Shown: positions 14,963 to 34,086, counted from the stretch's first letter. The stretch: DNA of 64,000 nucleotides from Chiayiivirga flava (GCF_014202825.1 NZ_JACHHP010000005.1:75818-139817), one strand, 5' to 3'. The notes: generated from the letters alone by a model not told the origin. Numbers and translations are program-made.

Positions 14963-15831
14963 ATCGTTGTCCCATCTGCGGCGCGGCCGTCCTCGCGGAC
15001 ACCTGTGCGGCCTGCGGTTTTCGACCGGCGTCGATCGACGGATTCGTCGCGTTTGCGCCGGACCTTGCGCGCGCCGCGCCCGGCTACGACCCGGAACACT
15101 ACCGTTCGCTTGCGGAACTGGAGGCAGGCAACTTCTGGTTCCGTGCACGCAACGCGCTGATCCTCGATGCTCTCGCGCGCTATTTCCCGGCAGCGCAGTC
15201 GTACCTGGAAATCGGGTGCGGCACAGGCTACGTTCTCTCGGCCGTCGCTGCGGAGCGGCCTACGATGGCGGTGCACGGCAGCGAGATCTTCGTCGAGGGC
15301 CTCGCCTTCGCCGCCCAGCGTACACCGCGTGCCACGCTGTTCCAGATGGATGCGCGGCGACTGCCGTTCGATGCGGCCTTCGATGTGATCGGCGCATTCG
15401 ATGTGATCGAACACATCGACGAGGAACGCGAGGTACTGCAGGAGCTGTTCCGGGCGGTTCGCCCGGGTGGCGGCGTGGTGTTGACGGTGCCGCAGCATCC
15501 GTGGCTATGGAGCGTGCAGGACGACATCGCGCACCATGTCCGCCGCTACCGACGGGGCGAACCCGAATCGCGCCTTGCCGAGGCCGGCTTCAAGGTGGTG
15601 TTCAGCACATCGTTCGTGGCGCTTCTGTTGCCCGCACTGATGCTTTCGCGCCTCGGAGGAGATCGGGCACGCGAGGCGCCACACGATCCGTTCCGCGAGT
15701 TCAGGATCCCGCGCTGGCTCGATTCGACTCTTGCCCTGATGATGCGGTTCGAGCGCGTGCTGATCCATGCAGGACTGCGCTTTCCCGTCGGCGGGAGCCG
15801 ACTCGTCGTTGCCACCAAGGCCCTCGCATGA
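14959..15831 (+). CDS. SAM-dependent methyltransferase with N-terminal zinc-ribbon-like cysteines
   Basis: This 290-residue protein begins with a CPIC...CAAC knuckle (Cys4, 7, 16, 19), then a class I methyltransferase fold with YLEIGCGTGYVL near residues 80-91 and DVIEHIDEE near 149. The C-terminal third carries a hydrophobic patch (FVALLLPALMLSRL). Such proteins methylate sugars or polyprenyl-linked intermediates in polysaccharide loci, but the acceptor is unknown. It lies between the flippase-like gene and wecE with 4-base overlaps on both sides. Confidence 0.88.
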   Translation: MNRCPICGAAVLADTCAACGFRPASIDGFVAFAPDLARAAPGYDPEHYRSLAELEAGNFWFRARNALILDALARYFPAAQSYLEIGCGTGYVLSAVAAERPTMAVHGSEIFVEGLAFAAQRTPRATLFQMDARRLPFDAAFDVIGAFDVIEHIDEEREVLQELFRAVRPGGGVVLTVPQHPWLWSVQDDIAHHVRRYRRGEPESRLAEAGFKVVFSTSFVALLLPALMLSRLGGDRAREAPHDPFREFRIPRWLDSTLALMMRFERVLIHAGLRFPVGGSRLVVATKALA

Positions 15832-16952
15832 TTCCCTTCAACAAGCCGTACATGACCGGTGCTGAACTCGAAGCGATCGCGCAGGCGCATGCGAACGGGC
15901 ACCTGTCCGGCGATGGGCAGTTCACCAAGCGTTGCCACGGGTGGCTGGAAGAACGTTTGGGCTGCGCGCGCGCGTTGCTCACCCATTCCTGCACTGCAGC
16001 GCTCGAGATGGCGGCGCTGCTGCTGGATCTTGGTCCCGGGGACGAGGTAATCCTGCCATCGTTCACATTCGTTTCCACGGCGAACGCATTTGTGCTGCGC
16101 GGAGCGGTGCCTGTGTTTGTCGATATCCGTGCAGACACGCTCAATCTCGACGAGTCGCTGATCGAAGCGGCCATCACGCCACGCACGCGCGCAATCTGCG
16201 TGGTGCACTACGCCGGCGTCGCCTGCGAAATGGACGAGATCATGGATATTGCTCAACGCCACGGGCTCGTGGTGATCGAGGATGCAGCACAGGGCATCCT
16301 GTCCACGTATCGTGGCCGGCCGCTGGGTTCCATCGGCGCTCTGGCGGCGCTGAGCTTCCACGAAACCAAGAACATTATCAGTGGCGAAGGCGGGGCGCTG
16401 CTGGTCAACGATGTCACGTTCGCAGCACGCGCCGAGGTCATCCGCGAGAAGGGCACCAATCGAAGTCAGTTCTTTCGCGGACAGGTAGACAAGTACACGT
16501 GGGTCGATATCGGTTCGTCGTATCTCCCCGGCGAGATCACCGCGGCGTTCCTGTATGCGCAGATGCAGCACGCCGACGGGATCACCGACGCGCGCCTGGC
16601 GCTGTGGAATCGCTATCACGCCGCTTTCTCTGCGCACGAGGAGCGCGGCCAGGTGCGCCGGCCGATCGTACCCGCCCACTGCACCCACAACGCGCACATG
16701 TATTATTTGCTGTTCGACTCGCTTGACGCGCGCACCCGAGCGATCGCTTCGATGAAGGCCGACGGGGTTTCGGCGGTCTTTCACTACATTCCATTGCACA
16801 GCGCACCGGCCGGCCGCCGCTGCGGCCGCGCGGCGGGCGACATGGCCGTGACCGACCGGGTCAGCGAGACACTGCTCCGCCTGCCGTTGTGGCTTCCGGA
16901 CCTGGATGTCGATCGTGTGATCGCATCGGTCGCGCGCGCGCTGGACGCCTGA
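15828..16952 (+). CDS. wecE: dTDP-4-amino-4,6-dideoxygalactose transaminase
   Basis: WecE/RffA is a PLP enzyme that converts dTDP-4-keto-6-deoxyglucose to dTDP-Fuc4N using glutamate. The 374-residue protein matches enterobacterial WecE from its first residues (MIPFNKP) through CGDG/SGDG-type loop, LLTHSCTAALEMAALLLD, VVHYAGVACEMDEIMD and REKGTNRSQFFRGQVDKYTW. The PLP lysine is in SFHETKNIISGEGGA near residue 184. Its substrate needs RmlA and RmlB, whose genes are not in this window. It sits in the same operon as wecB and wecC, giving the enterobacterial common antigen sugar set. Specificity is well supported by similarity but not proven. Confidence 0.93.
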   Translation: MIPFNKPYMTGAELEAIAQAHANGHLSGDGQFTKRCHGWLEERLGCARALLTHSCTAALEMAALLLDLGPGDEVILPSFTFVSTANAFVLRGAVPVFVDIRADTLNLDESLIEAAITPRTRAICVVHYAGVACEMDEIMDIAQRHGLVVIEDAAQGILSTYRGRPLGSIGALAALSFHETKNIISGEGGALLVNDVTFAARAEVIREKGTNRSQFFRGQVDKYTWVDIGSSYLPGEITAAFLYAQMQHADGITDARLALWNRYHAAFSAHEERGQVRRPIVPAHCTHNAHMYYLLFDSLDARTRAIASMKADGVSAVFHYIPLHSAPAGRRCGRAAGDMAVTDRVSETLLRLPLWLPDLDVDRVIASVARALDA

Positions 16953-16967
16953 GCGGCTGACTGGGCG

Positions 16968-18146
16968 ATGATTTCTGCAGCCTCCCAATCCGGCCGCACC
17001 GCGGTGCTGTACGACTTTCTGCAGACGCGTGGCGGCGCCGAGCGCTTTACGCTCGACCTGCGGAAGCTTCTGCCCTCCGCGGAGCTATGGTTCCAGGCGG
17101 CGTCGGAGCATTTTGCAGGCTGCGATCTCGATGCTGTGCATCTGCTGTCGCGAAAGCCGCTCTCGACCACCCGCGCGTTGCGCATTTCGCGCTGCATCCA
17201 CGGGTTCCTGCGGGCACGACGGCGCTTCCGCGACTACGACACGCTGCTGCTGAGCGGTCACTATGCGCCGCTCGCGATCGACCCGGGGCGTCCGTCGGGA
17301 TCGCAGCGGCGCGTTTACTACGCTCACACCGCGCCGTTGCCGTTCGCCTACGATCCGCCGCACGGGATCATCGCAGACGAACATCCGGTGACTGCGGCCG
17401 GCGTGTCGGTGTTGGGCGCATGGCTCAAGCCGCGCTTCGAGGCGGCGTTGCGCGGGGTGGATTGCGTGCTGGCAAATTCGTCATTCACCGCGAGCGAATA
17501 CACGCGCCGGTTCGGCATCGCCACGCAGGTCCTGCATCCGCCGTGCGATACGGCCCAATATCGCTGGCGACCGTCCGACGGGCACTTCCTGAGTTTTGCG
17601 CGGCAGGAAGGCCAGAAACGCGTCGACCGAGTCGTCGCCGCCTTCCGCGATCTGCCGCATCAGCGGCTGGTGGTGGCGTCCGACGGATCGGACCACGACG
17701 CTCTGGTTCAGCTCGCGCAAGGTGCGGAGAATATCCGCTTCGTACGCAGCATCGATCCGCAGGTCATTCGCGACCTGCTCGAGCGCTGCACGGCCGCAAT
17801 CCATATCCCCGAGCGCGAACCGTTTGGCATGTCGGTCGTGGAGTCGCTGGCGGCGGGAAAGCCGGCGGTGTCCGTCGACGAGGGCGGCTTGCCGGAAATC
17901 CTCTCATCCGAGGGGTGCGGCTGGCTGTTGCCGGCCGATCCGACACCCGCACAGCTGGCCGAACTCGTGTCCGGAATCACGGAGCAGGCTTGCGCGCAAC
18001 GGCGCCGTGCCTGCGAAGCGCGTGCGGCGGAATTCGGTCGCGACCGCTTTGCCGAGTCCCTGGGACGTGTGCTTGCGTCGCCGCCACGCGGGCGCCGGTC
18101 GGACACTCCGGAACCGGGGCATGCGTCGGGCGCCATTCAAGGGTAA
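16968..18146 (+). CDS. Group 1 (GT4) glycosyltransferase
   Basis: This 392-residue GT-B enzyme has an N-terminal acceptor domain starting at DFLQTRGGAERF and a C-terminal nucleotide-sugar domain (FLSFARQEGQKRVDRVVAAF near 205). The E(x7)E-type motif is EREPFGMSVVESLAAGKP near residues 282-299. It is cytosolic and likely adds one sugar of the repeat unit. It lies 15 bases after wecE. Donor and acceptor cannot be inferred. The end is basic and low in complexity. Confidence 0.9.
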   Translation: MISAASQSGRTAVLYDFLQTRGGAERFTLDLRKLLPSAELWFQAASEHFAGCDLDAVHLLSRKPLSTTRALRISRCIHGFLRARRRFRDYDTLLLSGHYAPLAIDPGRPSGSQRRVYYAHTAPLPFAYDPPHGIIADEHPVTAAGVSVLGAWLKPRFEAALRGVDCVLANSSFTASEYTRRFGIATQVLHPPCDTAQYRWRPSDGHFLSFARQEGQKRVDRVVAAFRDLPHQRLVVASDGSDHDALVQLAQGAENIRFVRSIDPQVIRDLLERCTAAIHIPEREPFGMSVVESLAAGKPAVSVDEGGLPEILSSEGCGWLLPADPTPAQLAELVSGITEQACAQRRRACEARAAEFGRDRFAESLGRVLASPPRGRRSDTPEPGHASGAIQG

Positions 18147-18223: not shown

Positions 18224-19048
18224 ATGCCCCATGCACCCAACAGGCAGCCCTACGAGCCAGTGTTGAAACTCATCCGTGATCTGTGGACGAACCGGGGGGT
18301 CCTCTACGCACAATTGATCGCCGACCTTCGCGCAAGCGTTGTGGGCACCCGCATGGGTTACCTGTGGTGGCTGCTCGATCCGCTGCTGCTGATGGCGATC
18401 TACTATTTTCTCGTGCAGGGCGTGCTCGAACGCGGCGGCGAGGACTACGCGTTCTTCATTTTCTGCGGCATCGTGCCGTGGCAGTGGTTCGCTCGCTCGA
18501 TGCAGTTGGCTGCGACCGCGTACACACGAAACAAGGGACTGATCCTGAGCGTGCCCGTGCCGTATTCGGTCTACGTGCTCTCCCCCATCGTGCTGCATTC
18601 GGCCTTCGCGTTGATCGGGCTCGGACTCATGCTGGCAGTCTATGATGTGTCGCTACTGTGGCGACTGCCGCTGGTCCTGCCATTGATGCTGCTGCAGCTG
18701 CTGCTGACCTTCGGGATCGGTCTGCTGCTGGCCTCCGCCACCGTGTTCCTGCGTGATCTGGCCAAGTTCGCCGATTACGGCATCCGCATCCTGTTCTACC
18801 TCTCGCCGGTGATCTACGCTGTCGATCGCGTACTGGCCTCCGAAACGATGCCGGCCTTGGCCAAAACCGTGTTCATGCTGAACCCTTTCGCGCACCTGTT
18901 GCCCGCTTATCGCGATCTGCTCATGCAGCGCTGGGGCAATCCGCCCGGCCCGGGTCTTGTCCTGATCGCGCTGCTGGCACTTGCCTTGATCTGGGCCGGC
19001 GCGTGGCTCAACGGCCGCCTGCGCAACCGAATCCCGCAGGCGCTGTGA
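18224..19048 (+). CDS. wzm: Polysaccharide ABC exporter, permease subunit
   Basis: This 274-residue, six-helix ABC-2 permease exports undecaprenyl-linked O-antigen or capsule across the inner membrane with Wzt. Typical stretches are [21 protein letters not shown] near residue 40, [14 protein letters not shown] near 85, and the C-terminal [17 protein letters not shown]. The start at ATG 18224 follows a 77-base gap after the GT4 gene; a second ATG lies three codons in. Its stop overlaps the wzt start by one base (TGATG). Confidence 0.93.
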
Positions 19049-19761
19049 TGACGTGCCTGATCGACATCCGCGCCGCCGGCGTCCGCTTCACCCGCGAAAC
19101 GCAGACGGCCCTGCGCGTGCGACGCGAGCCGTTCTGGGCACTGCGCGGCATCGATCTGCAACTGCACGAAGGCGAACGTCTCGCCGTGGTGGGCTCCAAC
19201 GGCTCCGGCAAGACCACTCTGATGCGGCTCATGGCCGGGGTCTTCGAACCCGACGAGGGGAACATTGCGCGTTGCGTACAACCCACGCTTCTGAGCCTGG
19301 GCAGCGGCTTCAATCAGGCTCTGTCGGGCCGCGAGAACATCTTCGTCAACGGAGCGCTCCTGGGCTTCTCGCGCCAGCACGTCCGTTTGCTGCTCGACCG
19401 GATCATCGCTTTCGCGGACATCGGCGTCTACCTCGATGCACCGATCCGCACGTACTCGTCGGGGATGAAGGTTCGTCTGGCATTCGCGATCGCGAGTCAC
19501 CTCAAGCCCGAGGTTCTGCTGATGGACGAAACCCTCGCAACCGGGGACCGCTTTTTCCGCGAGAAGGCGCGCGCGCGACTGCGCGAGCTCGCCACCGACT
19601 GCCGTGCGCTGGTGCTGGTGTCGCACCAGGAACAGTCGATCCGCCGTCTGTGCGGGCGCGCGCTGTGGCTGGACGGTGGCCGCGTGCGTCTGGCCGGAGA
19701 CGTGGACACGGTGCTTGGCGCCTACAGGGATTCCCACGCATCGAAGGGAACCTTCGCATGA
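19048..19761 (+). CDS. wzt: Polysaccharide ABC exporter, ATPase subunit (short form)
   Basis: This 237-residue ATPase has Walker A GSNGSGKT (49-56), the signature [11 protein letters not shown], Walker B VLLMDE and the switch histidine in LVSHQEQS. It has no C-terminal carbohydrate-binding domain, which long Wzt proteins (400 residues or more) use to recognise a capped chain end. It therefore resembles the Klebsiella O2a or capsule (KpsT) type, in which export is coupled to synthesis. It overlaps wzm by one base and wecB by four. Confidence 0.94.
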
Positions 19762-20885
19762 GGATCCTCACCGTGTTCGGCACCCGGCCCGAAGCGATCA
19801 AGATGGCGCCGCTGGTGCGGGCGCTGCGGCTCGAGCCCGGTTTCGATGCGCAGGTATGCGTGACCGGCCAGCATCGGCAGATGCTCGACCCGGTGCTCGA
19901 ACTGTTCGGAATCGTGCCCGATCACGACCTGGCCATCATGCGCCCCGGGCAAAGTCTCACCGACGTCACCTGTGCGGTGCTCGAGGGTCTGCGGCGTGTC
20001 ATCGAAACCGTGCGACCGGACCGCGTGCTGGTGCATGGCGACACCACGACCACGTTTGCGGCGTCGCTGGCCGCGTTCTACGCGCGCGTGAACGTGGCAC
20101 ATGTGGAAGCCGGACTGCGTACCGGCAACCTGCAGGCACCGTGGCCGGAAGAAGCCAACCGCACCCTCACCGCACGTCTGGCCGACCTTCATTTCGCGCC
20201 CACACCCGGCGCGCGCGACAACCTGCTGCGCGAGGGCGTGTCTCCTGCCACCATCCATGTCACCGGCAACACCGTCATCGACGCGCTGCTTTGGGTGCGC
20301 GACCGCATCCGGGGGTTGCCCACGTCCTCGATCGCCTTCGATTTCCTCGACCCGGCCCGCCGCACCGTGCTGGTTACCGGCCACCGACGCGAGAGTTTCG
20401 GCGACGGGTTCGAGCAGATCTGCCGCGCGATCGCCAGCGTCGCGGTACGCGAGGACGTGCAGTTCGTCTATCCGGTGCACCTGAATCCAAACGTGCGCGA
20501 GCCGGTGAACCGGATCCTTGCGGGGCGACCAAACGTGCACCTGATCGAGCCGCTCGACTATCTGCCCTTCGTCTCGCTGATGGACCGTAGCGACATCCTC
20601 CTCACCGACTCGGGCGGCATCCAGGAAGAAGCCCCATCGCTGGGCAAACCCGTGCTGGTGATGCGCGACACCACCGAACGTCCGGAAGCTGTCACTGCCG
20701 GCACGGTCCGCCTCGTCGGCGCCAGCCACGGGCGCATTGTCGACGCGCTGCACACCCTGCTCGACAATCGCGCCGTGTTCGATGCGATGTGCGCCGCGCA
20801 CAACCCGTATGGCGATGGACAAGCCGTGCCTCGCATCGTCGCGACGCTGGCGGGCCGCGTCGGCGCACCCTTTCCACCTTCATAA
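19758..20885 (+). CDS. wecB: UDP-N-acetylglucosamine 2-epimerase (non-hydrolysing)
   Basis: WecB interconverts UDP-GlcNAc and UDP-ManNAc in the cytosol. The 375-residue protein has the family's N-terminus ([15 protein letters not shown]), GDTTTTFA near 95, [10 protein letters not shown] near 115, PEEANR, and [28 protein letters not shown] near 276-303. Length equals the usual 376. It overlaps wzt and lies 13 bases before wecC, which oxidises its product. Confidence 0.96.
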
Positions 20886-20898
20886 AGAGCCCCTGTCC

Positions 20899-22137
20899 AT
20901 GGAAGACACCACCGTTTGCGTTCTTGGACTGGGCTACATCGGCCTGCCCACGTCGGCCGTGATGGCAGCGCGTGGCGCGCGCGTGTTCGGCACGGACGTC
21001 AATCCAAGGGTGGTCGATACGATCAACGCCGGCGGCATCCATATCGTGGAGCCGGAACTGGACGAGTTCGTGCGTGCCGCGGTCGGTTCCGGCAAGCTCA
21101 CCGCCCACCTGCAGCCGCAGCCGGCGGATGTCTTCATCATCGCGGTACCGACGCCGTTCAGGGATGGGCATGCGCCCGATCTGAGTTATGTCGACGCGGC
21201 GACACTGGCGCTGGCGCCCGTGCTCAAGGCAGGCGACCTCGTGATCCTCGAGTCGACGTCGCCGGTGGGAACCACCGAACGCGTGGCCGCTCTGCTGGCC
21301 CAGGCGCGTCCCGACTTGCGTGTGCCGCAAGCAGACGGCGACGCCTGCGACATTCACGTTGCGCACTGTCCCGAGCGCGTGCTCCCGGGCCAGGTGATCC
21401 GCGAGCTGGTCGAGAACGACCGCATTGTCGGCGGCATCACTACGATGTGCACGGACCGCGCCATCGCCTTTTACCGCCGCTTCGTAGACGGCCAGTGCCT
21501 TGCCACCACGGCGCGCACTGCGGAAATGTGCAAGCTCACCGAAAACGCCTTCCGTGACGTCAACATCGCGTTCGCGAACGAGCTCTCGCTGATCAGCGAT
21601 CGCATGGGGGTGGATGTCTGGGAACTGATCCGCCTCGCCAACCGCCATCCGCGTGTCAACATCCTGCAGCCGGGCTGCGGCGTCGGCGGGCACTGCATCG
21701 CGGTCGATCCGTGGTTCATCGTCGACTCCGCACCGGAGCAGGCTCGCCTGATCCGCGCCGCGCGCATCGTGAACGACGGCAAGCCGGACTTCGTCATCGA
21801 ACGGACGCGGGCACTGGCGACTGAACGTGGCGCGACCCGCATCGGCATCTTCGGCCTGGCCTTCAAACCCGATATCGACGACCTGCGCGAAAGCCCGGCA
21901 TTGGTCATCGCCCATCGTCTCGCAAGCGAATTCGAGATACTCGTGGTCGAACCCCACATCGACGCGTTGCCGAACGTATTGTCGCAAGGCGTGCGCGCGA
22001 CACTGGTAACCGCAGAAGATGCCCTCGCACGGTGCGACCTGCTGCTCGTGCTTGTCCGCCACCGCGCATTTCCTCCGCTCTTGCGGGCACTGGGCACCGA
22101 CAAGACCGTGCTCGATGTGTGCGGCGCGCTGCAGTGA
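20899..22137 (+). CDS. wecC: UDP-N-acetyl-D-mannosamine dehydrogenase
   Basis: WecC oxidises UDP-ManNAc to UDP-ManNAcA with two NAD+. The 412-residue protein has the Rossmann motif GLGYIGLPTSAVMAARG (8-24), PTPFRDGHAPDLSYV near 90, STSPVGTTE, the catalytic-lysine region EMCKLTENAFRDVNIAFANE and the catalytic cysteine in GCGVGGHCIAVDPWF near 259-273. The UDP-ManNAc form is favoured over UDP-Glc dehydrogenase by the paired wecB gene and the WecC-like ESTSPVGTTE and GHCIAVDPWF segments. It supplies the aminouronic acid of the polymer. Confidence 0.95.
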   Translation: MEDTTVCVLGLGYIGLPTSAVMAARGARVFGTDVNPRVVDTINAGGIHIVEPELDEFVRAAVGSGKLTAHLQPQPADVFIIAVPTPFRDGHAPDLSYVDAATLALAPVLKAGDLVILESTSPVGTTERVAALLAQARPDLRVPQADGDACDIHVAHCPERVLPGQVIRELVENDRIVGGITTMCTDRAIAFYRRFVDGQCLATTARTAEMCKLTENAFRDVNIAFANELSLISDRMGVDVWELIRLANRHPRVNILQPGCGVGGHCIAVDPWFIVDSAPEQARLIRAARIVNDGKPDFVIERTRALATERGATRIGIFGLAFKPDIDDLRESPALVIAHRLASEFEILVVEPHIDALPNVLSQGVRATLVTAEDALARCDLLLVLVRHRAFPPLLRALGTDKTVLDVCGALQ

Positions 22138-22144: not shown

Positions 22145-23908
22145 ATGATCATGCGTCGGGTGCGCACATGCCTGTGTGCGCTGGCGCTGCTGTCGCCGCT
22201 CGCGAATGCAGCGCTGCCCACCGAACCCGTGACCACGTTTGCAGCGCACATCGATCTTGTCCGAAGCAGGCATCCCGAAGTGGCGCTCGAAAGAGCGCTT
22301 GCCGGACAGTTCCAGCCGCGCGAGGGCGTAGAACCGTGGCCGCTCACGCCGCCGATCGACTGGAACGCAGACCCGTTTGCCGACCCGAACTGGCGGTTCC
22401 AGCTCCATGCCTGGCGCATGCTCGATCCGCTGGTGCTCGCCTACGTACACGACGCCGATCCGATGTTGCTCGACCGCATGCTGGCACTGGCGCGCGACTG
22501 GAAGCGATATCACCTTGATGAGGGGCGCCGTTCGGAGTTCGGCGACTACGACATGGCGCTGGGACTTCGCGCACAGAAGCTCGCGTGGCTGCATGTGGCA
22601 CTGGGTGCCGCAGGCCGCGAGAGTGCGCGTGACGCCGTGATCGGACCGCTGGCTCAACATGCACGCGACACGTTGCTCGCACAGATGCCCTTCAGCGCCA
22701 CCAATCACGGCCTGTTCCAGGTGCACGGGTTGCTGGCGCTGTGTCGAGCGGGCGCGACCGACTGCACACGCACCGAGCAGCCCGCACTCGCGGAGTTCGA
22801 ACGCTTGCTCGACCAGCAGTTTCTCCCCGACTTCGGCCATGCGGAGCATTCGCCGGCGTACCACTTCTTTGCGCTCAGGACGTTCCGCCGCATGCTGGCA
22901 AGCGGTTGGTACGCGCAGGCCACGCGGGCGATCGCGATCCTCGACGGCGCGCAGGCGGTGAGCGCCTGGCTCTCGGATCCCGCTGGCGATCTGTTCGCGG
23001 TCGGCGACAGCGACAGCGCCCCCGCACCCAAACGCAAACCGCCGCAATCCGACTGTGCCCTGCGCATCGACGATGTGTGTTACATGCTCAAGGTCCTTCC
23101 GTCCACCGGCTGGGCGATCGCGCGCAGCGCCTGGAATGCTCCGGCGCAGCGCGGCTCGGCACTGTTTTTCCAGGCCGCGCACCATTCCGCTACGCACAAG
23201 CACGCCGATGACCTGAGCTTCGTCTGGTTCGACCGCGGTCGCTCCGTGCTGATCGATCCGGGCCGCTTCGGCTACGTGCGCGACGCGCGACGCGACTACA
23301 TGGCCTCGACCCGGGCACATAATGCGGTGCAGATCGACGGGCGCAACCAGCACACAGGTGGCGAGGCCGCGTATGGCTCGGCCCTGTTGCCCAGCCGAAT
23401 CGAAAACGGCGGTATTGTGCTTCGGGCTTCGATGCAAGCCATACCCCGCGCGACGCGCCATACCCGAACCCTGGTCTATCGCCCGCAGCGCATGCTGCTG
23501 GTGCTCGATGCACTGCGGTCCGACGACGCGCACGAGTACACGCATTGGTTCCAGTTCGGCAGCGACGTGATGCTTTTGCCGGACACGTCCAGCGTCATGC
23601 GCACGCTGCGCTTCGACGACGGCACGACGCTGCATCTGGTGTTGTCTCGCGATGACTGCGACGTACGCGCGCATCGCGGCGAGACGGCGCCGCTTCAGGG
23701 TTGGATCACAAGCGGCTATGCACGCGCCGCGCCGGCACTTTCGCTTGCGATCCGCTGCCACGGAACGGACAGCCTGCTGGGTACGGCGTTCGTCTGGCAC
23801 ACTGATGACCTGGAGCACGTCCGCGCCGAGATGATCGACGTCCTTGCCCACCCGCGCCATGCCGATGTCGGCACACCCATGACACTGCAGCAGGAATCGA
23901 CCCGGTGA
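22145..23908 (+). CDS. Exported heparinase II/III-like polysaccharide lyase
   Basis: This 587-residue protein has a signal peptide (about residues 1-24, ending ANA), so it acts in the periplasm or outside. An alpha-helical N-terminal domain carries FSATNHGLFQVHG and AEHSPAYHFFALRTFRRM; the beta-sandwich half begins near 330 with HHSATHKHADDLSFVWFDRGR. Asn, His and Tyr in these stretches match the catalytic residues of the heparinase II/III and alginate-lyase-related family. These lyases cleave uronic-acid-containing chains, and this operon makes a uronic acid sugar (WecB/WecC). It may trim polymer stranded in the periplasm. ATG 22145 or 22151 could start it. Confidence 0.87.
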   Translation: MIMRRVRTCLCALALLSPLANAALPTEPVTTFAAHIDLVRSRHPEVALERALAGQFQPREGVEPWPLTPPIDWNADPFADPNWRFQLHAWRMLDPLVLAYVHDADPMLLDRMLALARDWKRYHLDEGRRSEFGDYDMALGLRAQKLAWLHVALGAAGRESARDAVIGPLAQHARDTLLAQMPFSATNHGLFQVHGLLALCRAGATDCTRTEQPALAEFERLLDQQFLPDFGHAEHSPAYHFFALRTFRRMLASGWYAQATRAIAILDGAQAVSAWLSDPAGDLFAVGDSDSAPAPKRKPPQSDCALRIDDVCYMLKVLPSTGWAIARSAWNAPAQRGSALFFQAAHHSATHKHADDLSFVWFDRGRSVLIDPGRFGYVRDARRDYMASTRAHNAVQIDGRNQHTGGEAAYGSALLPSRIENGGIVLRASMQAIPRATRHTRTLVYRPQRMLLVLDALRSDDAHEYTHWFQFGSDVMLLPDTSSVMRTLRFDDGTTLHLVLSRDDCDVRAHRGETAPLQGWITSGYARAAPALSLAIRCHGTDSLLGTAFVWHTDDLEHVRAEMIDVLAHPRHADVGTPMTLQQESTR

Positions 23909-26900
23909 TCTCGGAATCCTCCACCAGCGTGCGGCCTGCCGACGATCCGACCCGCGACTATGTGGCGCGGGCTTATTTCGGCGCGTACGGGTCGCACGAA
24001 ATGATCCAACGCACGCGCCGCCGCATCGACTGGGTGGCGTCGCAGTGCCGTGGCCCACAGGTTCTCGATGTCGGCTGCAGCGAAGGCATCGTGGCGCTGC
24101 TGCTGGCGCGTGAGGGTCTGTCTACCACCGGCGTCGACACCAATGCCGAAGCCATCGCCGCGGCGCGTACCCTGATTGCGCAGGAATCGGATGCAGTGCA
24201 GGCGCGCGTGCGCTTTCACCACGGCGATCTGGAAAGCGCGGCGCTGCCCGCCGCGAGCTTCGACACGCTGGTGATGGGCGAGATACTCGAACATCTGATC
24301 GCACCCGAGCGCCTGCTGGAAACCGCCATTGCCTGCCTGCGCGATGGCGGCCGCCTCGTAATCACCACGCCGTTCGGGTATCACCCTGATGACGACCATC
24401 GACAGGAATTCGGCCTCGCGCAATTCAGCGACATGGTCCGGCGCTGGACGGCGGTGGAGACCATCGAGGTGGTTGACGGCTACATCCGGTACGCAGGTAT
24501 CCGCGACGAGGCGCCCGACGCATCCTGGGCGGAGCTGGGCGATCGTGCCCTGGTCGAACTCGGCGACGATGCGGCGCGCGCCGCGCAGCACGCCCTGCAT
24601 CGGCATATCCGCAACCACAAGAAGCGCATTTCCACGCTCGAAAAGACCGTAGGCAAGCTCGAAAAGGACAGCGCCCAGGCGACCGACCTTCGTCTCAAGG
24701 TGCGAGACCTCGAAGCGGCGCTCGCCGCACAGGTACGCAACGACAAGGAGCGTGCCTCGCGGATCGCGGAACTCGAAAGGGCCGCTGGCGACATTGATCG
24801 CACCTTGCGCAGCGAGCGCGGCCAGAGGGAACTGCTGCAGGCGCGTACGGACGACATGCGCACCGCTTTCGATGCGTCCCGTCAACGCAATCGCGACCTC
24901 GGTGCACGTATCGCTTCACTGAAGGCGCTGACCCTGTCGCAGGCGCGCCAGATCGCAATGGCGGAAGCCAGTCTGGCGCAAATAATGGAACGCAAGCGTG
25001 CAGACACCTCGCGCTTGACCGAGGCGTGCGACAAGAAACTCAAGGCCGAAATCCGTAAGCACGCCGAAACAAGGCAGCGGCTTGCCATCGTTTCGGCAAG
25101 CGACAAGCACTATCGCCATGCCGTTCGCGAACTTCGCAAGAGCGTGAGCTTCCGCATCGGTCAAGTGTTCGTGCAAGCTGCACAACGCCCTCTGACCGGC
25201 GTCGTATTGCTGCCGTTCCGCTTGCTTGCGGTTGTCTGGAACTACATCCGCGTCCCGCACGGCGCGCATGCGTCGAAGCGATCTGAGCCTACGCGCAATA
25301 CGGAGGTTGCAGCCGTGCGCCTGCCACGCGCCGCCGTCGGCGCACCCGCGCATCGGCAGGCGATCGAAGCCGCTCGCTTCGAGGCATTCGTCCCGCATGC
25401 CCATCGCGCGCCTGCGTCGCCTGTGATCGCCACCGTGCTCGACGAATTCTCCGAACAGTGTTTTGCGCCGGAAGCGCGCTTGCTGCCACTGTCCAAGCGC
25501 GAATGGCAGACCCAGCTGGAAACGACTCGACCCGACCTTCTGCTGGTGGAATCGGCCTGGCGCGGCAACGGCGGACAGTGGAAGGGCGAGATCAACCGCT
25601 GCGCCGAGAAACCGGACGCGGCACTGCCGAAACTCGTCGCTTACTGCCGAGAGCATGGCATCCCGACCGTGTTCTGGAACAAGGAAGACCCGCTCAACTA
25701 CGACCAGTTCATCGCCGCGGCCAGACTGTTCGATCACGTTTTCACCACCGACGAATCGCTGCTGCCGAAATACCGCGAGGATCTGGGTCACGACCGCGTG
25801 GCGGCACTGCCGTTCGCGGCGCAGCCGGACATCCACAACCCGACTTCGCGACGCGACGAGTTCGACGTGGCATTTGCCGGCAGCTGGTTCGCCGAAAAGC
25901 ACGACACGCGGCGCGCCGTGCTTGAGCCGCTGCTGGACGCGGCCACGCATTTCGAGTTGCACATCTTCGATCGCCATTCGGCGCTGGACGATCCGCGCTA
26001 CGCGTTCCCATCGAAGTACCGGCAGTGGATCCGTCCCGCGTTGCCTTATTCGAGCGTGCTGACCGCGTACCGTCGGTTCAAAGTCTTTCTCAATGCCAAC
26101 TCGGTTCTGGAATCTCCCAGCATGTTCTCGCGCAGGGTATTCGAGCTGCTGGCCTGTGCGACGCCCGTGGTGTCCACACCCTCGGCCGGAATGGAGGCAA
26201 TGCTGCCTGGCCTCGTCCGCGTGGCACGGGACGAAGCAGAAGCACGTGCGCACATCGCTGAACTGCTCGGAGACGAGGAAAAGCGCCGCATCGAAGGCCA
26301 TCTCGCGATGCGCGCGGTGTTGACCGATCATACCTATCGTGTGCGCCTGGCGCAGGTGATGCAGCGCATCGGACTGCCTGCCCCGGTCGCGAGCGCGATG
26401 CCGCGGGTCTCGATCGTGTTGTGTACCAATCGTCCGGAGAATCTCCCCAACTGCCTGCACAACGTGCGGCGACAGTCGTATCCCGACATCGAACTGATGC
26501 TGGTTCTCAACCGCAACGGTGTGGATCTGAACGAGGTGCGAGCGCAGTTCGCCGACCTGCCCAACGTGACCGTGCTGCATGTGGACGAAGCCGAGTCTCT
26601 CTATACCTGTCTCAACGCGGCCATTGCGCAGTGCTCGGGCCAGATCTGGAGCAAGATGGACGACGACAACGTCTACGGCGACCACTACATCGCCGATCTG
26701 GTGCGTGCAATGGAGTTTTCGCATGCGGATATCGTCGGCAAGACCTGCTACTACACACTGCTCGAACACCGGAATCTCTCCGGCCTGCGTCGCATGGGCG
26801 TGGAGAACGGCTACGTGAAATTCGTCCAGGGCGGCACCATTACCGCACGTGTCGCGACCACGACGGCATTGCGCTGGAGCGAGGATTTGCGCTCCGGTGG

Positions 26901-27087
26901 CGACTCGCAGTACTTGCGCGACGCTGCCGCCGCCGGCCTGTCGATCTACTCGTCCGACCGCTTCAACTTCGTCAGCGTCCGGCGTGGAGACGAAGGCGGC
27001 CACACGTGGACGATCAAGGACGAGGACTATCTCAAGCGCTGCGAAGGCGTGCGCGAGGGTATCGACCTTTCACGCATCCTGATCTGA
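23905..27087 (+). CDS. Multidomain methyltransferase / coiled coil / CgeB-like GT / GT2 protein
   Basis: This 1060-residue protein starts at GTG 23905 and overlaps the lyase gene by 4 bases. Residues about 40-190 are a class I methyltransferase (VLDVGCSEG at 52-60, VMGEILEHL near 124). Residues about 232-410 are rich in Lys, Arg, Glu and Ala with heptad spacing and look like a long coiled coil. A short hydrophobic segment follows (FRLLAVVWNYIR near 440). Residues about 507-828 resemble CgeB/DUF3880-type GT-B proteins (VFNN-like GIPTVFWNKEDPLNYDQF; FSRRVFELLACATPVVSTPSAGMEA). Residues 832-1060 are GT2 (VSIVLCTNRPENL, SKMDDDNVYG with the DxD). It may extend and cap the glycan, but this role is inferred. 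Confidence 0.88.
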   Translation: MISESSTSVRPADDPTRDYVARAYFGAYGSHEMIQRTRRRIDWVASQCRGPQVLDVGCSEGIVALLLAREGLSTTGVDTNAEAIAAARTLIAQESDAVQARVRFHHGDLESAALPAASFDTLVMGEILEHLIAPERLLETAIACLRDGGRLVITTPFGYHPDDDHRQEFGLAQFSDMVRRWTAVETIEVVDGYIRYAGIRDEAPDASWAELGDRALVELGDDAARAAQHALHRHIRNHKKRISTLEKTVGKLEKDSAQATDLRLKVRDLEAALAAQVRNDKERASRIAELERAAGDIDRTLRSERGQRELLQARTDDMRTAFDASRQRNRDLGARIASLKALTLSQARQIAMAEASLAQIMERKRADTSRLTEACDKKLKAEIRKHAETRQRLAIVSASDKHYRHAVRELRKSVSFRIGQVFVQAAQRPLTGVVLLPFRLLAVVWNYIRVPHGAHASKRSEPTRNTEVAAVRLPRAAVGAPAHRQAIEAARFEAFVPHAHRAPASPVIATVLDEFSEQCFAPEARLLPLSKREWQTQLETTRPDLLLVESAWRGNGGQWKGEINRCAEKPDAALPKLVAYCREHGIPTVFWNKEDPLNYDQFIAAARLFDHVFTTDESLLPKYREDLGHDRVAALPFAAQPDIHNPTSRRDEFDVAFAGSWFAEKHDTRRAVLEPLLDAATHFELHIFDRHSALDDPRYAFPSKYRQWIRPALPYSSVLTAYRRFKVFLNANSVLESPSMFSRRVFELLACATPVVSTPSAGMEAMLPGLVRVARDEAEARAHIAELLGDEEKRRIEGHLAMRAVLTDHTYRVRLAQVMQRIGLPAPVASAMPRVSIVLCTNRPENLPNCLHNVRRQSYPDIELMLVLNRNGVDLNEVRAQFADLPNVTVLHVDEAESLYTCLNAAIAQCSGQIWSKMDDDNVYGDHYIADLVRAMEFSHADIVGKTCYYTLLEHRNLSGLRRMGVENGYVKFVQGGTITARVATTTALRWSEDLRSGGDSQYLRDAAAAGLSIYSSDRFNFVSVRRGDEGGHTWTIKDEDYLKRCEGVREGIDLSRILI

Positions 27088-27171
27088 TCCCGATGACGCA
27101 GTCGGTAGGTCCATCGCCGTGCAAGCCCGGTCTTGGCATTCCTGGTTATCGCCGATGTCGGCGTCACTAGG

Positions 27172-29265
27172 ATGAGCGGCAGGAGCGGCGACGTGCGCGC
27201 CGAACCGGGGCAGCGCGACCATTTCGTGCCCGAGATCCAGGGCCTGCGCGCGGTCGCGGTGCTCGCAGTACTCGTCTATCACCTGTGGCCAGACCGGTTG
27301 CCCGGTGGCTTCGTCGGCGTCGACGTGTTCTTCGTGATCTCAGGCTACCTCATCACCGCGTTGCTGTTGCGGGAATTCGTTTCGACCCAATCGATCGCGC
27401 TCTCGCGGTTCTACGCCCGTCGTGCACTGCGATTGTTGCCGGCGGCATCCCTGGTGCTGCTGGCCGTCGCGTTCTGCCTGCCGCTGTTGCCGCAGGTGGA
27501 ATGGCGCAGCACCGCCGTCGACCTGGGGGCGAGCACACTCTATGTGCAGAACTGGTGGTTGGCCTTGCAGGCGGTGGACTATCTGGCGTCGGAACACGCA
27601 GGTAGCGCGTTGCAGCATTTCTGGTCGCTGTCGGTGGAAGAACAGTACTACCTCGTGTGGCCACTGCTGTTGCTCGTCGCAGCGCGCGTCTGGGGGCGCC
27701 GAAAAGCCCGGCCGACCACGTTGTTCGGCGCGATCATCGGTGTCGTGTTCGCAGTGTCGCTGGTGTACTCGTGCTGGTTGACGCCCCGCAACCCGGGGCT
27801 GGCCTATTTCGCGACCACTACGCGAGCATGGGAGCTGGCACTGGGCGGCTTGCTCGCCGTATGGGCTAGCGAGCGGGCGCTTGCACCCCGGGCAGGCGTA
27901 CTGGCGGCCTGTGTCGGACTGGCGATGATCGGAATTGCCGCGTTCCTCATCGACGCGTCGATGGCGTTTCCCGGCTACCTCGCGCTGCTGCCGACGCTCG
28001 GCGCCGCATTGGTGCTGGCCGCCGGGGCACAGCCGGGAACCCTGCTGCGCGCAACGTTGGCTTCGCGTTCGATGCAGTACGTCGGCGACCTTTCCTATTC
28101 GCTCTATCTGTGGCACTGGCCTGTGATCGTCGTATTTCAGTCCGCCGTGGGGCATCGACCGGATCTGGTCGAAGGTGTGGCGCTCGGCGCCATTTCGCTC
28201 GCGTTGGCACACCAGACGAAGAGCCTGGTGGAGGACCGCCTGCGCTTTCTCCCCGCGCTGCGGATTGGGGCCAGACCATTCGCGTTCGGCGCTGCCGCGA
28301 TGGCGTGCTGTCTGCTGGTTGCCGTCTTGATTCGCATCGAGTTGTATCCGGCGAGCGAGCCGGCGGCGCAGCAACTCGAGTCGGCCCAGATCGCACCCGC
28401 TGCAGCCGATTCGAGCGTCGCTGCACCTGTCTCGCTCGAGGGCCTCAAGCCTCCGCTTGCGCGTGCGCGCGACGACAATCCCGATGTCTACGCGCAGGGC
28501 TGCCACGCAAGTCCACGCAGCGCGAAGCCGTCCACCTGCACCTGGGGCGCCGACGACGCGACCGTGCACGTGATGCTGGTAGGCGATTCCCACGCGGCGC
28601 AATGGATTCCTGCGCTGCAGTGGATCGCCGGGAACAAAGGCTGGCGGCTGACCTCACTTACCAAATCCGCATGCCCGTTCGCGGACGGCAGCGTCGCCGA
28701 AGGCAAGGGTGGCGAGCCATACGCCTCGTGTGATGCGTGGAACGCCGCCGCGCTGGCACATGTCCTCGCACAGCGCCCCGCACTGGTGGTGACGAGTCAG
28801 GCGGTGATGCTCACCGCGTACGGCAGCACGAGCGCCGCCTCCAGCCATGCCGCGTTGTCTGCGGGCCTGGCCTCGCGCTGGAACACGCTGGCGGCCGCGG
28901 GAATCCGCGTGGTGGCGCTCAAGGACACGCCGCGCATGGGTTTGGACGTGCCGAAGTGCCTGGGTTCGCCGCGCGGATCGGCGCAACGCTGCAGCCGCCC
29001 GCGTTCGCTGGTGCTGGCCACGCCGGACCCGCTGGTCATGGCACAACGCGACGCACCACAGGCGGTGCTGGCCGATCTCAACGATCTGCTGTGTCCGACT
29101 GCGGTTTGTCCTCCGGTGATCGACGGTATCCTCGTCTGGCGCGACTCGCACCATATGACGGCCACATTCGCGCGCACGCTCGCGCCGACGCTGCAACACC
29201 GTCTCGAAACGGCGCTGGCCGTACCGCCGTCGCCCGACAGTCCTGCCACCCGGACAGATCCGTGA
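27172..29265 (+). CDS. Membrane O-acyltransferase: AT3 domain fused to SGNH hydrolase-like domain (OafA/OatA-like)
   Basis: This 697-residue protein adds acyl groups, usually acetyl, to surface glycans at the periplasmic face. Residues about 20-390 form the multi-helix acyltransferase 3 domain, with EIQGLRAVAVLAVLVYHL, GGFVGVDVFFVISGYLI and the RRALRLLP region. The C-terminal periplasmic SGNH domain has GDSHAAQW (Ser473) and DSHHMT (Asp658, His661) as the triad. ATG 27172 is preferred to a TTG at 27133 because the AT3 motif lies at the normal distance. An O-acetylated polymer is the likely outcome. Confidence 0.92.
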   Translation: MSGRSGDVRAEPGQRDHFVPEIQGLRAVAVLAVLVYHLWPDRLPGGFVGVDVFFVISGYLITALLLREFVSTQSIALSRFYARRALRLLPAASLVLLAVAFCLPLLPQVEWRSTAVDLGASTLYVQNWWLALQAVDYLASEHAGSALQHFWSLSVEEQYYLVWPLLLLVAARVWGRRKARPTTLFGAIIGVVFAVSLVYSCWLTPRNPGLAYFATTTRAWELALGGLLAVWASERALAPRAGVLAACVGLAMIGIAAFLIDASMAFPGYLALLPTLGAALVLAAGAQPGTLLRATLASRSMQYVGDLSYSLYLWHWPVIVVFQSAVGHRPDLVEGVALGAISLALAHQTKSLVEDRLRFLPALRIGARPFAFGAAAMACCLLVAVLIRIELYPASEPAAQQLESAQIAPAAADSSVAAPVSLEGLKPPLARARDDNPDVYAQGCHASPRSAKPSTCTWGADDATVHVMLVGDSHAAQWIPALQWIAGNKGWRLTSLTKSACPFADGSVAEGKGGEPYASCDAWNAAALAHVLAQRPALVVTSQAVMLTAYGSTSAASSHAALSAGLASRWNTLAAAGIRVVALKDTPRMGLDVPKCLGSPRGSAQRCSRPRSLVLATPDPLVMAQRDAPQAVLADLNDLLCPTAVCPPVIDGILVWRDSHHMTATFARTLAPTLQHRLETALAVPPSPDSPATRTDP

Positions 29266-31469
29266 ACTACGCCGGAGACGAGAGCGCATCGCAGACAGCT
29301 GCGTCGCACCACCGGGGCGAACGATCGACCTGGCTGCAGGTGTTGCCTGACGTACCGCTGGCTGCACTGTTGCTACCGACACTGGCGCTCGGCTGTCTGC
29401 TGGGCCTGTTCGCCACGCTCAACGAGCTCACCGATCTAACGCTTCTCTACCAGCGGCCTGGCGCGTGGATCATCGGGGTGACCTTAACGGGACTGTCGAC
29501 CGCTTTGATCGTGGGACTCGCCCGGCACGTGCCGCACGATCGAATCGCGCGTGCCATCGCGGCGGTGATCTGTGCAAGCGTGCTGCTGCACGTGCTCTAT
29601 GCCTGTTCGATCGACGAGCCCCTGCGCGGCGACTTCGAGGCGATGTGGCTGGCGGCCGAGGAGATGGTTACGCGGGGATTGCCGGCGGATCCGACGATCT
29701 ACCATTGGCGCGCGTTGCCGCTGCTGGCACCGGTGATGTTCGCTTTCGGCGCGCATCCTGTGATCGTGCCGGCGATGAACATCGCATTGCTTGCCGCGAT
29801 CCAGGCCATCGGCTGCGGCCTGCTGCTGCGCTCCGGCCAGCGCCGCGCGGCACTGGTCTTCGCGCTGATCTTCGGCCTGGTGCCGGAGACCTATCACGCC
29901 AGCATCACCGCCTCCCACGACATCTGGGGATTGTTCTTCCTCTCCATCGCGATCGCGCTCGCGCTTGCGCTGCAGCGCGCGATCGTGGCAGTCACCGTGC
30001 CTGCACGAGCACGGTGGCTGCGCATCGGCGTGCTGTTCGTCGGAAGCGTCCTAGCAATCGCGCTGCTCGACCTGCAGCGGCAGATCGGACTCGTGGTAAT
30101 CCTCGGGATCTGCGTGCACCTGATTCGCCTCGTATTGACCTGGATGATCGCGACCCACCGCAAGCAAGGCCGGCGCAAAACGTGCCGCCAGGCGGCGGCG
30201 GCAAGCGTACTGCTCGCCGCGTCCGTATGCGGTATGGGGCTGACCGGCTGGACGTTACGAACCCTCGGGTTGCTGGGCGACCCCGACACCGTTGCGATGC
30301 AGCAGGCACGCGTGTTCGCATCACACGGCAGCAGTCTGGCCAGCGGCTACTACTCCTGGCTAGAACGGTTCGAAAACGACTACATGCGCAAGCTGGAGCC
30401 TACGCCGGCTGCATGGCGGGAGTTTTCCCGATCGCTGCTGCTGTCGGACATCGCCAATCAGCCGCTGTCGCGTGTGCATGCGCATCTGTTCCGTCTCTAT
30501 CGGCAGTTCGACCTCGGCTCCAACTACCGCTTCTATCTGATGCAGACGCACACCGCGCAGCGCGACCGCTACTGGGCACAGCGCGTCTGGAATGTCTCGT
30601 TCGCGGCAGCATTCTGTCTCGCCGTTGCCTTCGCTCTTGTCCGCACGTTCGGACAAGAGCGAAAATCAAACGCCATGCTGATGCAGCTGAGCCTGCTCGG
30701 CGCATTGCTGCTGCTGCTTGGCGCCGTCGGCGAAAGCCAACCGCGGTACATTTTCCCGATCTGGTTCATCGGTGCACAGCTCGTCGCGACCGCGCTCTAC
30801 GCGCAACGGACGACCAGACAAATCACCTGGGTGTACCGAAGCCTGGGGGTTGGTGCGACTGCGGCAACCGTCGTCGTTTCCTGCGCGGTGGGTGCATGGG
30901 TGGTGCTCGACCGGAGCTACGATGCGTCCGACGGCCGCATCATCCACGGCTGGCGTTTCAGCTCCGCCGGTGGCCGCGACGAGGTGTCCGAACGCAAGGC
31001 TCTGCGACGGATGCAGCAGCACTCCGGTCGCGACATGCGCAGATCCACCACGCACAACCCCGACCTGCAACTGCTCGGCAACTTCGGCACCCATGCGGCA
31101 GTGCTTGGGTTCACCGAGCCGATGCAGGTCGGCACCCGCGTCCGGGCGGTCTCGCCCAGGGTGTGCGGCGCTGCAGACGAGGCAAGGGCGCTTGCATTCT
31201 TCGTGGTCGCAACCCCCGAGGCAGACGAACGGACGTTCGCCACCCTGGAGGTGCGATTCGATGGGACCAAGGTCTTCGAGACGAACTTGCCCGCAAAAGC
31301 CGCCGTGGAACACTACGTTGCGCTGGACGCCGTGCCCGCCAGGGCGTGCGGTGCCGTGCAGGTGGATCTTGTTTCCGGCATCACCACGCCGAGCAAACGC
31401 GCGAATCGGCTGACACGGGTCGAGGTACAGTTTCTGCGTCTGCTTCGCACGCCCCGCGGTGCATCGTGA
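29262..31469 (+). CDS. Polytopic membrane protein, probable GT-C (GT87-like) glycosyltransferase
   Basis: This 735-residue protein starts at GTG 29262, overlapping the acyltransferase stop. It has roughly ten to twelve membrane helices up to about residue 540, then a soluble C-terminal domain of about 190 residues. The first large loop contains IDEPLRGDFEAMWLAAEEM, resembling the acidic loop of GT-C/GT87 enzymes (D-F-x-x-W/Y-x-A-A pattern). GT-C enzymes use polyprenyl-phosphate sugars on the periplasmic side. With the DPM1-like GT2 and SMR-like flippase earlier in the operon it could complete a three-part side-branch system. No family is recognised with certainty. Confidence 0.72.
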   Translation: MNYAGDESASQTAASHHRGERSTWLQVLPDVPLAALLLPTLALGCLLGLFATLNELTDLTLLYQRPGAWIIGVTLTGLSTALIVGLARHVPHDRIARAIAAVICASVLLHVLYACSIDEPLRGDFEAMWLAAEEMVTRGLPADPTIYHWRALPLLAPVMFAFGAHPVIVPAMNIALLAAIQAIGCGLLLRSGQRRAALVFALIFGLVPETYHASITASHDIWGLFFLSIAIALALALQRAIVAVTVPARARWLRIGVLFVGSVLAIALLDLQRQIGLVVILGICVHLIRLVLTWMIATHRKQGRRKTCRQAAAASVLLAASVCGMGLTGWTLRTLGLLGDPDTVAMQQARVFASHGSSLASGYYSWLERFENDYMRKLEPTPAAWREFSRSLLLSDIANQPLSRVHAHLFRLYRQFDLGSNYRFYLMQTHTAQRDRYWAQRVWNVSFAAAFCLAVAFALVRTFGQERKSNAMLMQLSLLGALLLLLGAVGESQPRYIFPIWFIGAQLVATALYAQRTTRQITWVYRSLGVGATAATVVVSCAVGAWVVLDRSYDASDGRIIHGWRFSSAGGRDEVSERKALRRMQQHSGRDMRRSTTHNPDLQLLGNFGTHAAVLGFTEPMQVGTRVRAVSPRVCGAADEARALAFFVVATPEADERTFATLEVRFDGTKVFETNLPAKAAVEHYVALDAVPARACGAVQVDLVSGITTPSKRANRLTRVEVQFLRLLRTPRGAS

Positions 31470-32889: not shown

Positions 32890-34086
32890 TCACGCATCGG
32901 CCGACGCGAGTCTACGTTCGATCGCATCGAACAACGGCACCAGCCGCAGGCGCCAATCCCACGCCGGATTCGCCGCCACACCCGCCGGCGGTGCGAGCAG
33001 CGTGGCGTCCAGTGTCTGCGCAAAGGTGGCGTGGTCGTCAGCCATTCGCACAGCCGTCGACAACGGCAACGATTGCAGCCGTGTGGACACCACTGGCAGA
33101 CCACTTGCGATGTACTCATAAGCCTTGAGCGGATTGATGCCGGCGATGAAGCGCTCGCTCCCGACTGCACGAAACGGGATCAATCCGACATCCGCATGCT
33201 GCAGGTAAGCCGGCAGCGCCGCGTGCGGGCGCGGCCCAAGCAGATGCACGTTCGGCAGGCCGGCCAACGCCGCGGCCGCATCGCCCGGCGGGCCGACCAG
33301 CATGAACTGCACGTCGGGGCGACGTTGCGCGCAGAGCCGCAGCAGAGGCGTATCGAACCAAGCGTCCATTGCGCCAACATATACCGCGATCGGCCCCTGC
33401 AACGCAGCGTACTCGGGTGGTCGTGCTGCAGGGCGTGCAAAACGTTCGAGTTCCACACCATTCTCGAGCAGCAACGCCTCGACTCCGCAGCTCGAACGCA
33501 TATGCGCCTGCACCACGACCGAGGTCGCAAGCACGAGGTCTGCGGCACGCGCGAACCGCCTCTCGAGCGGTGCGAGCGCATTCCCTCCGCCTGGGTAGTC
33601 GGTGGTGATGTCGGCCGCACGATAAACCGTCATGCGCGGTTCGACGCTCGGAAAGAATTGCGCATGGAAGAAGTGATCTGTCAGTGCCACATCGATGGTC
33701 GGAAACCCTGCCGCGCGCAAGACACGTGCAATCGGAGGCAGGGCAAAGCGCCACGCATTGCGCACCATCCAGTGCTGACGCAAACCGCGGGCGTAGGCGA
33801 TCGGCAGAAGCGAGAACGGCACGTAGTGCCAAACGCCGGTGTCGGCATCGTATTCGCCACCGCGGCGCCAGCTCTGCCAGCGGACGGGCTTCATTGCGCC
33901 GACACCGGGCAGCAGGTGTAGCGGACTGAGCGCGGCCGACACGAATGCCACGCGCCAGCCACGGCGCGCGAATTCTTCGGCGATGTGATGACTGCCGATC
34001 CGGAACGGTGAGCGCCAATGCTGTGTGGAGACGACCAGAGCGGTGCGGCCTGATCGGGAACGCAACGGCGGTGCTAGATCGAACAT
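32890..34086 (-). CDS. Group 1-like glycosyltransferase (GT-B fold)
   Basis: This 398-residue protein begins with a short linker, then LVVSTQHWRSPFRIGSHHIAEEFARRGWRVAF, and its C-terminal half has PIAVYVGAMDAWFDTPLL, VQFMLVGP and PLKAYEYIASGLPVVSTRL, as in TuaH-like glycosyltransferases. The EYIASGLPVVST segment contains the usual glutamate. Its ATG overlaps the stop of the cystathionine enzyme gene (TGATG), so the two are probably translationally coupled. It is the border between conserved housekeeping genes and the polysaccharide genes. Confidence 0.88.
   Translation of the reverse strand: MFDLAPPLRSRSGRTALVVSTQHWRSPFRIGSHHIAEEFARRGWRVAFVSAALSPLHLLPGVGAMKPVRWQSWRRGGEYDADTGVWHYVPFSLLPIAYARGLRQHWMVRNAWRFALPPIARVLRAAGFPTIDVALTDHFFHAQFFPSVEPRMTVYRAADITTDYPGGGNALAPLERRFARAADLVLATSVVVQAHMRSSCGVEALLLENGVELERFARPAARPPEYAALQGPIAVYVGAMDAWFDTPLLRLCAQRRPDVQFMLVGPPGDAAAALAGLPNVHLLGPRPHAALPAYLQHADVGLIPFRAVGSERFIAGINPLKAYEYIASGLPVVSTRLQSLPLSTAVRMADDHATFAQTLDATLLAPPAGVAANPAWDWRLRLVPLFDAIERRLASADA

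Follow-up and report, generated by a model that had tools for sequence, protein, structure and literature searches.

A predicted O-antigen polymerase joined by a coiled coil to a putative chain-terminating methyltransferase, encoded beside a CBM-less ABC exporter

The window, a 64-kb stretch of DNA (64,000 nucleotides) analyzed at its full length, encodes a 1060-residue protein in which a methyltransferase (MT), a long coiled coil and two glycosyltransferases (GTs) follow one another in a single chain. We give an even chance to the reading that a membrane-docked O-antigen polymerase is here linked through a coiled-coil spacer to its own chain terminator, and that the exporter encoded in the same locus would be blind to the cap. 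The protein and its parts are as follows:

23905-27087, + strand: methyltransferase / coiled coil / GT-B / GT2 protein, 1060 aa (Pfam, AF2, heptad scoring)
23995-24504, + strand: class I SAM-dependent methyltransferase domain, residues ~31-200 (Pfam, AF2 model)
24526-25149, + strand: long heptad-repeat helix, residues ~208-415 (AF2, heptad scoring)
25153-25248, + strand: R-x-G helix ending the coil and the next hydrophobic helix, residues ~417-448, a candidate membrane-contact helix
25420-26370, + strand: CgeB-like GT-B glycosyltransferase domain, residues 506-822 (Pfam, AF2)
26398-27084, + strand: GT2 (GT-A fold) glycosyltransferase domain, residues 832-1060 (Pfam, AF2)

The open reading frame from which the initial annotation had started is real: it comprises 1060 codons with a coding-type GC distribution over the codon positions, and its GTG start overlaps the TGA stop of the preceding heparinase-like gene. 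Pfam and AF2 together also reproduced the domain order proposed there, namely MT, coil, CgeB-like GT-B and GT2. Pfam placed Methyltransf_23/11 at residues 47-163, Glyco_trans_1_2 at residues 670-819, with a sub-threshold DUF3880 match at 591-660, and Glycos_transf_2 at residues 837-960, which include a DDD motif at 919-921. In an AF2 model of the whole chain, based on an alignment of 34 rows, the MT fold (~31-200), the GT-B fold (507-822) and the GT-A fold (835-1058) were all well formed. The motifs LDVGCSEG (SAM), MDDDN (DDD) and RRVFE (GT-B) are intact. UbiG was the nearest curated family for the MT domain, with a score far under the family cut-off, and no kinase domain was found in the protein by Pfam or in the AF2 model.

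In the whole-chain model, the linker between the MT and the GTs was split into helices at 205-301, 311-333, 350-427 and 429-448, and confidence was low for residues 291-368, where most homologues are gapped. When residues 190-450 were modeled alone from the single sequence, AF2 returned an unbroken helix at 208-396, followed by shorter helices at 402-424 and 437-449, and the pLDDT of the block was mostly 83 to 96. At 0.1485 nm per residue, the 189 residues of the unbroken helix span about 28 nm. For heptad repeats we used a purpose-made score that tolerates register shifts in place of plain Fourier power; it delimited a segment at 222-415 (194 aa) with a score of 39.1, compared with a mean of 9.5 and a maximum of 17.1 for 200 shuffles of the linker. 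Plain Fourier analysis of the entire proline-free run at period 3.5 gave p=0.06, as expected when a long coil changes register along its length. The initial annotation had suggested a structure prediction as a check, which would have spoken against the coil had it come out broken; the outcome was a continuous helix with significant heptads. The coil itself therefore stands, with a length of roughly 190 to 210 residues rather than the approximately 180 first given. The helix after the coil, TGVVLLPFRLLAVVWNYI, has a hydrophobic moment of 0.57 and a mean hydrophobicity of 0.56, and relatives carry a motif similar to this R-x-G / hydrophobic helix.

Coil length varied widely among the relatives. 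Heptad segments measured 57 to 321 aa in MT-bearing relatives (n=12) versus 7 to 85 aa in MT-less ones (n=9), a difference with a Mann-Whitney p of 3.3e-4 that is not independent of ancestry. On the GT tree, well-supported branches carry no fewer than four changes of the MT label, and a phylogeny-aware test of coil length had only three independent contrasts, all of which agreed with the expectation (p=0.25, sign test). Two of the MT-bearing relatives have coils of merely 57 to 63 aa. Within the family, the heptad segments are 194 aa in the window, 231 aa in G235, 217 aa in G016 and 321 aa in G311. Longer coils in proteins with an N-terminal MT fit a spacer that is needed only if something must be held away, a fit that falls short of proof.

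The genes surrounding this protein are listed below:

4842-5588: etfB, beside etfA in the left flank
5770-6708, + strand: etfA, left housekeeping flank
10474-11370, + strand: NDP-sugar epimerase
11367-12332, + strand: ATP-grasp protein
12338-12979, + strand: HAD protein
12973-13617, + strand: hexapeptide acyltransferase
13614-14567, + strand: GT2 with C-terminal membrane helices
14600-14962, + strand: small EamA-like protein
14959-15831, + strand: methyltransferase, the second one in the locus
15828-16952, + strand: DegT aminotransferase
16968-18146, + strand: GT4 glycosyltransferase
18224-19048, + strand: Wzm-like ABC-2 membrane subunit, 274 aa (Pfam 22.4 bits, below the cut-off of 26.9; adjoins Wzt)
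19048-19761, + strand: Wzt-like ATPase, 237 aa, without Wzt_C/CBM
19758-20885, + strand: WecB-like UDP-GlcNAc 2-epimerase (UDP-ManNAc synthesis)
20899-22137, + strand: WecC-like UDP-sugar dehydrogenase (UDP-ManNAcA synthesis)
22145-23908, + strand: heparinase II/III-like protein with a Sec-type N-terminal signal by eye, a candidate periplasmic uronate lyase
27133-29265, + strand: AT3-SGNH O-acetyltransferase (Pfam)
about 29370-31469, + strand: polytopic protein with a soluble C-terminal domain
34086-35246, - strand: metB-like cystathionine enzyme, right housekeeping flank
35375-36904, - strand: CBS, right flank

A ManC-type enzyme is also encoded in the left flank with etfB and etfA. In Xanthomonas, the lps locus is flanked by metB and etfA (PMC524487). 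Since etfA lies on one side and metB and CBS on the other, as in Xanthomonas, the locus is by this synteny the O-antigen locus of a xanthomonad-like bacterium; the family placement likewise rests on the etfA-metB synteny. MetB/CBS adjoined the cluster in all 15 related loci of the family. No RNA families or tRNAs were found in the 64-kb window. The GT2 at 13614-14567, the EamA-like protein at 14600-14962 and the polytopic protein at about 29370-31469 resemble a three-component set for periplasmic glycan modification (compare PMC11127046).

The GT-B + GT2 module proved to be widespread, and among the best 80 of 528 relatives in the genome collection it occurred in Actinomycetota, Bacillota, Planctomycetota, Myxococcota and Cyanobacteriota. 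WecB and/or WecC flanked the module in 74 of these 80 foreign loci (best 80 of 528), and both did so in 65. Given this association, ManNAcA is probably a constituent of the polymer, and UDP-ManNAcA would be the likeliest donor for one of the two GT domains. The heparinase II/III-like protein is a possible lyase for a polymer containing ManNAcA; genes of this type recur in the family loci L124, L127, L128 and L132 (G141, G347, G398 and G146, respectively). Nonomuraea, Streptosporangium, Microbispora and relatives (L010-L081, Streptosporangiales and others) share a highly conserved GT-B + GT2 protein that lacks the MT and is accompanied by WecB and WecC; it may be the synthase of a ManNAcA polymer of the teichuronic type. 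No exporter lay within 10 kb of the module at many loci of Actinomadura and Phycisphaerales relatives. In one locus from Phycisphaerae (L004), the gene order was Wzm, Wzt (277 aa), MT-coil-GT-GT, GT4 and WecB.

Of the 397 genomes in the window's order, 16 contained the GT-B + GT2 module, all but one of them in the same family, and these 15 family loci were examined for terminator-coil proteins and Wzt. Besides the window, six of the 15 encode a long-coil protein, which in five cases carries an N-terminal class I MT, FkbM MT or pyruvyltransferase; in each of the six loci the Wzt is CBM-less or gave no sign of a CBM. Two of them (G311 and G235) have a fused N-terminal MT homologous to that of the 1060-aa protein, and a third (G016) has a fused N-terminal MT of the FkbM type, unrelated to it. 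Two further genomes encode the coil in a separate protein of the locus, an FkbM MT-coil-GT2 chain in G358 and, in G146, a polysaccharide pyruvyltransferase-coil (446-837)-GT4-GT4 chain. The chemistries found at the MT position (FkbM MT in G016) and on the separate coil proteins (FkbM MT in G358, pyruvyltransferase in G146) are all able to block a chain end. By heptad score, no long-coil terminator was detected in the remaining nine loci.

Several of these chains merit a description of their own. The G146 chain (L132:2460-8489, - strand) has 2010 aa, with the pyruvyltransferase at 26-352 and a coil of approximately 390 aa, in a locus whose Wzt is of CBM-less length; it is a candidate pyruvate-cap ruler, a type of protein for which candidates exist and biochemical proof is absent (PMC10629545). 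In G027 (L102:12669-14294), a 542-aa protein with a C-terminal coil (398-536) has an anatomy like that of the Klebsiella O4 ORF7 terminator, and no Pfam family was found in its residues 1-397. Chains of approximately 2100 aa with a GT4 at the MT position are encoded at L124:6102-12446 (G141) and L127:7618-13932 (G347), and no long coil was detected in either.

We then turned to the exporter. For the 237-aa Wzt of the window, Pfam and NCBIfam detected the ATPase domain only and no Wzt_C/CBM, and its best NCBIfam match was a CBM-less galactan exporter ATPase (193.6 bits, below the cut-off of 400). Thus, the description of an uncapped-type Wzt held with respect to the missing CBM; the Wzt belongs to the same gene run as the 1060-aa protein but does not directly adjoin it, as had been stated, since the wecB, wecC and heparinase-like genes intervene. 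Wzt_C was absent at E<=1 from eight Wzt proteins (the window and seven family loci) and from two of more distant family loci, while the other Wzt proteins of the family were classed as CBM-less by length only. The 277-aa Wzt of the Phycisphaerae locus had no Wzt_C match at E<=1e-5. As a positive control, the second Wzt of the window's own genome (G000:C4) gave a weak Wzt_C match (26.3 bits here and 27.9 bits in another scan). The locus of this second Wzt (L105:5383-9255, ~60.4-64.3 kb of G000:C4) encodes a Wzm, the 403-aa Wzt with the weak Wzt_C and an MT ending in a short heptad stretch, and it looks like an ABC-export locus of the capped, CBM-bearing type. Across the family, most genomes (139 of 198) have a Wzt_C, and its absence from the window and the related loci is therefore not taxon-wide.

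Three ways of accounting for the missing CBM were considered. Neither the 1060-aa protein nor the Wzt showed a hidden CBM by Pfam, NCBIfam or AF2 modeling. A CBM supplied by another Wzt of the genome is possible for the window, given the weak Wzt_C of G000:C4; in G016, G235 and G311, no Wzt_C match was detectable in the entire genome at E<=1. A loss of the CBM specific to MT-bearing loci was unsupported, since in the Wzt tree the CBM-less Wzt proteins of the family formed a single deep clade that held terminator-bearing and terminator-free loci alike. The window Wzt fell outside this clade and grouped with that of the Phycisphaerae locus L004, both on long branches. This position suggests that coil terminators may have been combined with CBM-less exporters on more than one occasion.

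Comparison with characterized systems indicated that the architecture of the protein is of a known kind (O7 ORF6, O12 WbbB and, in part, WsaE), so that the combination of domains, first thought to be possibly new, is not. Klebsiella pneumoniae O7 ORF6, with the order MT-kinase-CBM-coil-GT2-GT2, likewise unites an N-terminal MT, a coiled coil and two C-terminal polymerizing GTs in one chain within an ABC-exporter O-antigen locus, but it adds a kinase and an Ig-like CBM, has two GT2 domains instead of GT-B + GT2, and produces a methyl-phosphate end (PMC11231755). In K. pneumoniae O12 WbbB, too, a polymerase with two C-terminal GTs shares its chain with a coiled coil and a terminator; that terminator, however, transfers Kdo, and the Wzt of O12 has a cap-reading CBM (PMC11231755). 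An MT and two GT domains in one protein adjoining Wzm/Wzt are known from Geobacillus stearothermophilus WsaE, which we liken by description only and which differs in its rhamnan polymer and in an in vitro methylation that is independent of chain length (PMC2943079, PMC3898925). The initial annotation had invoked WbdD, and the anatomy of a terminator at the tip of a coil does correspond: WbdD of Escherichia coli O9a/O8 has an N-terminal MT at the coiled-coil end and a proposed C-terminal membrane/polymerase end, and O8 WbdD is methyltransferase-only (PMC3482155). Unlike in the window, the polymerase WbdA is separate, the O9a protein has a kinase and the exporter has a CBM (PMC3482155). Orthology with WbdD was rejected, as the phmmer match to 4azs is confined to the SAM motif region (residues 49-133, E=2.5e-4), the kinase is absent and the GT domains are fused rather than forming a separate polymerase; WbdD is thus a distant analogue.

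On the exporter side, the closest parallel is Klebsiella O1/O2a (WbbM, WbbY, WbbZ), with a CBM-less Wzt, a two-GT polymerase and an optional O1 end modification, but without a coiled-coil terminator and with a length set by transporter:synthesis stoichiometry (PMC10629545). With O7 ORF6 and O12 WbbB, the window shares the one-chain arrangement of enzyme, coil and GTs in a Wzm/Wzt glycan locus and lacks the cap-reading CBM; with the O2a type it shares the CBM-less Wzt and differs in having a candidate coiled-coil terminator. A coil terminator combined with a CBM-less Wzt was not described in the literature that we searched, which did not extend to the survey of Mann 2019 in Glycobiology (cited in PMC10629545), and the novelty of the pairing is not certain.

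We propose the following mechanism. A lipid-linked chain would grow at the membrane through the two C-terminal GT domains, which would take turns in adding the two sugars of the repeat; ManNAcA is probably one of these sugars, supplied as UDP-ManNAcA by the WecB and WecC encoded in the locus. The helix after the coil would dock the polymerase end on the membrane. At the far tip of the ~28-nm rod, the N-terminal MT would methylate, and so cap, the non-reducing end, and from this position it would reach only chains that are long enough. Capping would stop chain growth; with an assumed disaccharide repeat of ~1 nm, 28 nm would correspond to some tens of repeats. The Wzm/Wzt pair would then export the chain, and, as the exporter lacks a CBM, the cap would act as a stop for synthesis rather than mark the chain for export. 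By analogy with Klebsiella O2a, export would probably be coupled to synthesis. In terminated Klebsiella systems, the CBM on Wzt reads the cap (PMC11231755), and the published division into capped systems, in which the Wzt CBD is essential for export, and uncapped systems (PMC9445017) argues against cap-blind export. In recombinants, the CBM-less O2a exporter can carry a terminated O3a glycan (PMC10629545, PMC11231755).

An unlikely but serious alternative is that the MT caps only some ends, that, as in Klebsiella O1/O2a, length depends on how much exporter there is relative to the synthesis complex, and that the coil is mainly a scaffold holding enzymes at the membrane. This would agree with the CBM-less Wzt of the window and with Klebsiella O1, where pyruvate caps part of the chains and is dispensable for length control and export (PMC11231755, PMC10629545). 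Moreover, about half of the related CBM-less loci keep the exporter and the polymerase module with no terminator-coil protein detected, which implies that the system works without a terminator. Against this, Klebsiella O1 has no coil, and in the present proteins an N-terminal end-modifying enzyme is always accompanied by a long coil.

It is distinctly improbable, in our view, that the MT instead O-methylates a sugar, or the carboxyl group of ManNAcA, in many repeats during growth, with the coil acting as an oligomerization stalk. The UbiG-like MT family does not reveal the acceptor, and the second methyltransferase (14959-15831) indicates that methylation is a common chemistry in this locus; yet an enzyme at the end of a rigid rod, far from the polymerase, makes modification of every repeat awkward, and the swap to an FkbM-type enzyme, like the pyruvyltransferase carried at this position by a separate coil protein, better fits chain-end chemistry. 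We consider it very improbable that length is set after export through trimming by the heparinase-like protein (22145-23908), with little influence of the coil. Its gene does overlap that of the 1060-aa protein start to stop, its N terminus resembles a signal peptide and related genes occur in four family loci (G141, G347, G398 and G146), but it is a candidate lyase only, and the same search found it missing from the other MT-bearing loci (G016, G235 and G311).

A broader proposal, which we hold tentatively at somewhat less than an even chance, is a third class of ABC-exported O-antigen, in which chains would be measured by a coil and capped at the end, the transporter would be blind to the cap, and the cap would be only a stop signal. 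Class I MTs, FkbM MTs and pyruvyltransferases would then be exchanged freely at the coil tip, and the link between capping and the CBM would fail. The part worth following is the exporter mismatch, which extends over the window, six of the 15 family loci and one other phylum and looks like a hybrid. In the literature that we searched, coiled-coil terminators are paired with CBM-bearing Wzt proteins and CBM-less exporters with no ruler; the window and several relatives combine the synthesis side of the former pairing with the exporter side of the latter. If capping and the ruler hold true, measuring the chain and controlling the quality of export would be separable functions, and this would account for cap chemistry that could change with no matching change in the exporter. 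The family would then offer a natural set for relating coil length to chain length, with a shared locus position and GT module, a cap-coil present or absent, and coils of 194 to 321 aa in its MT-bearing members.
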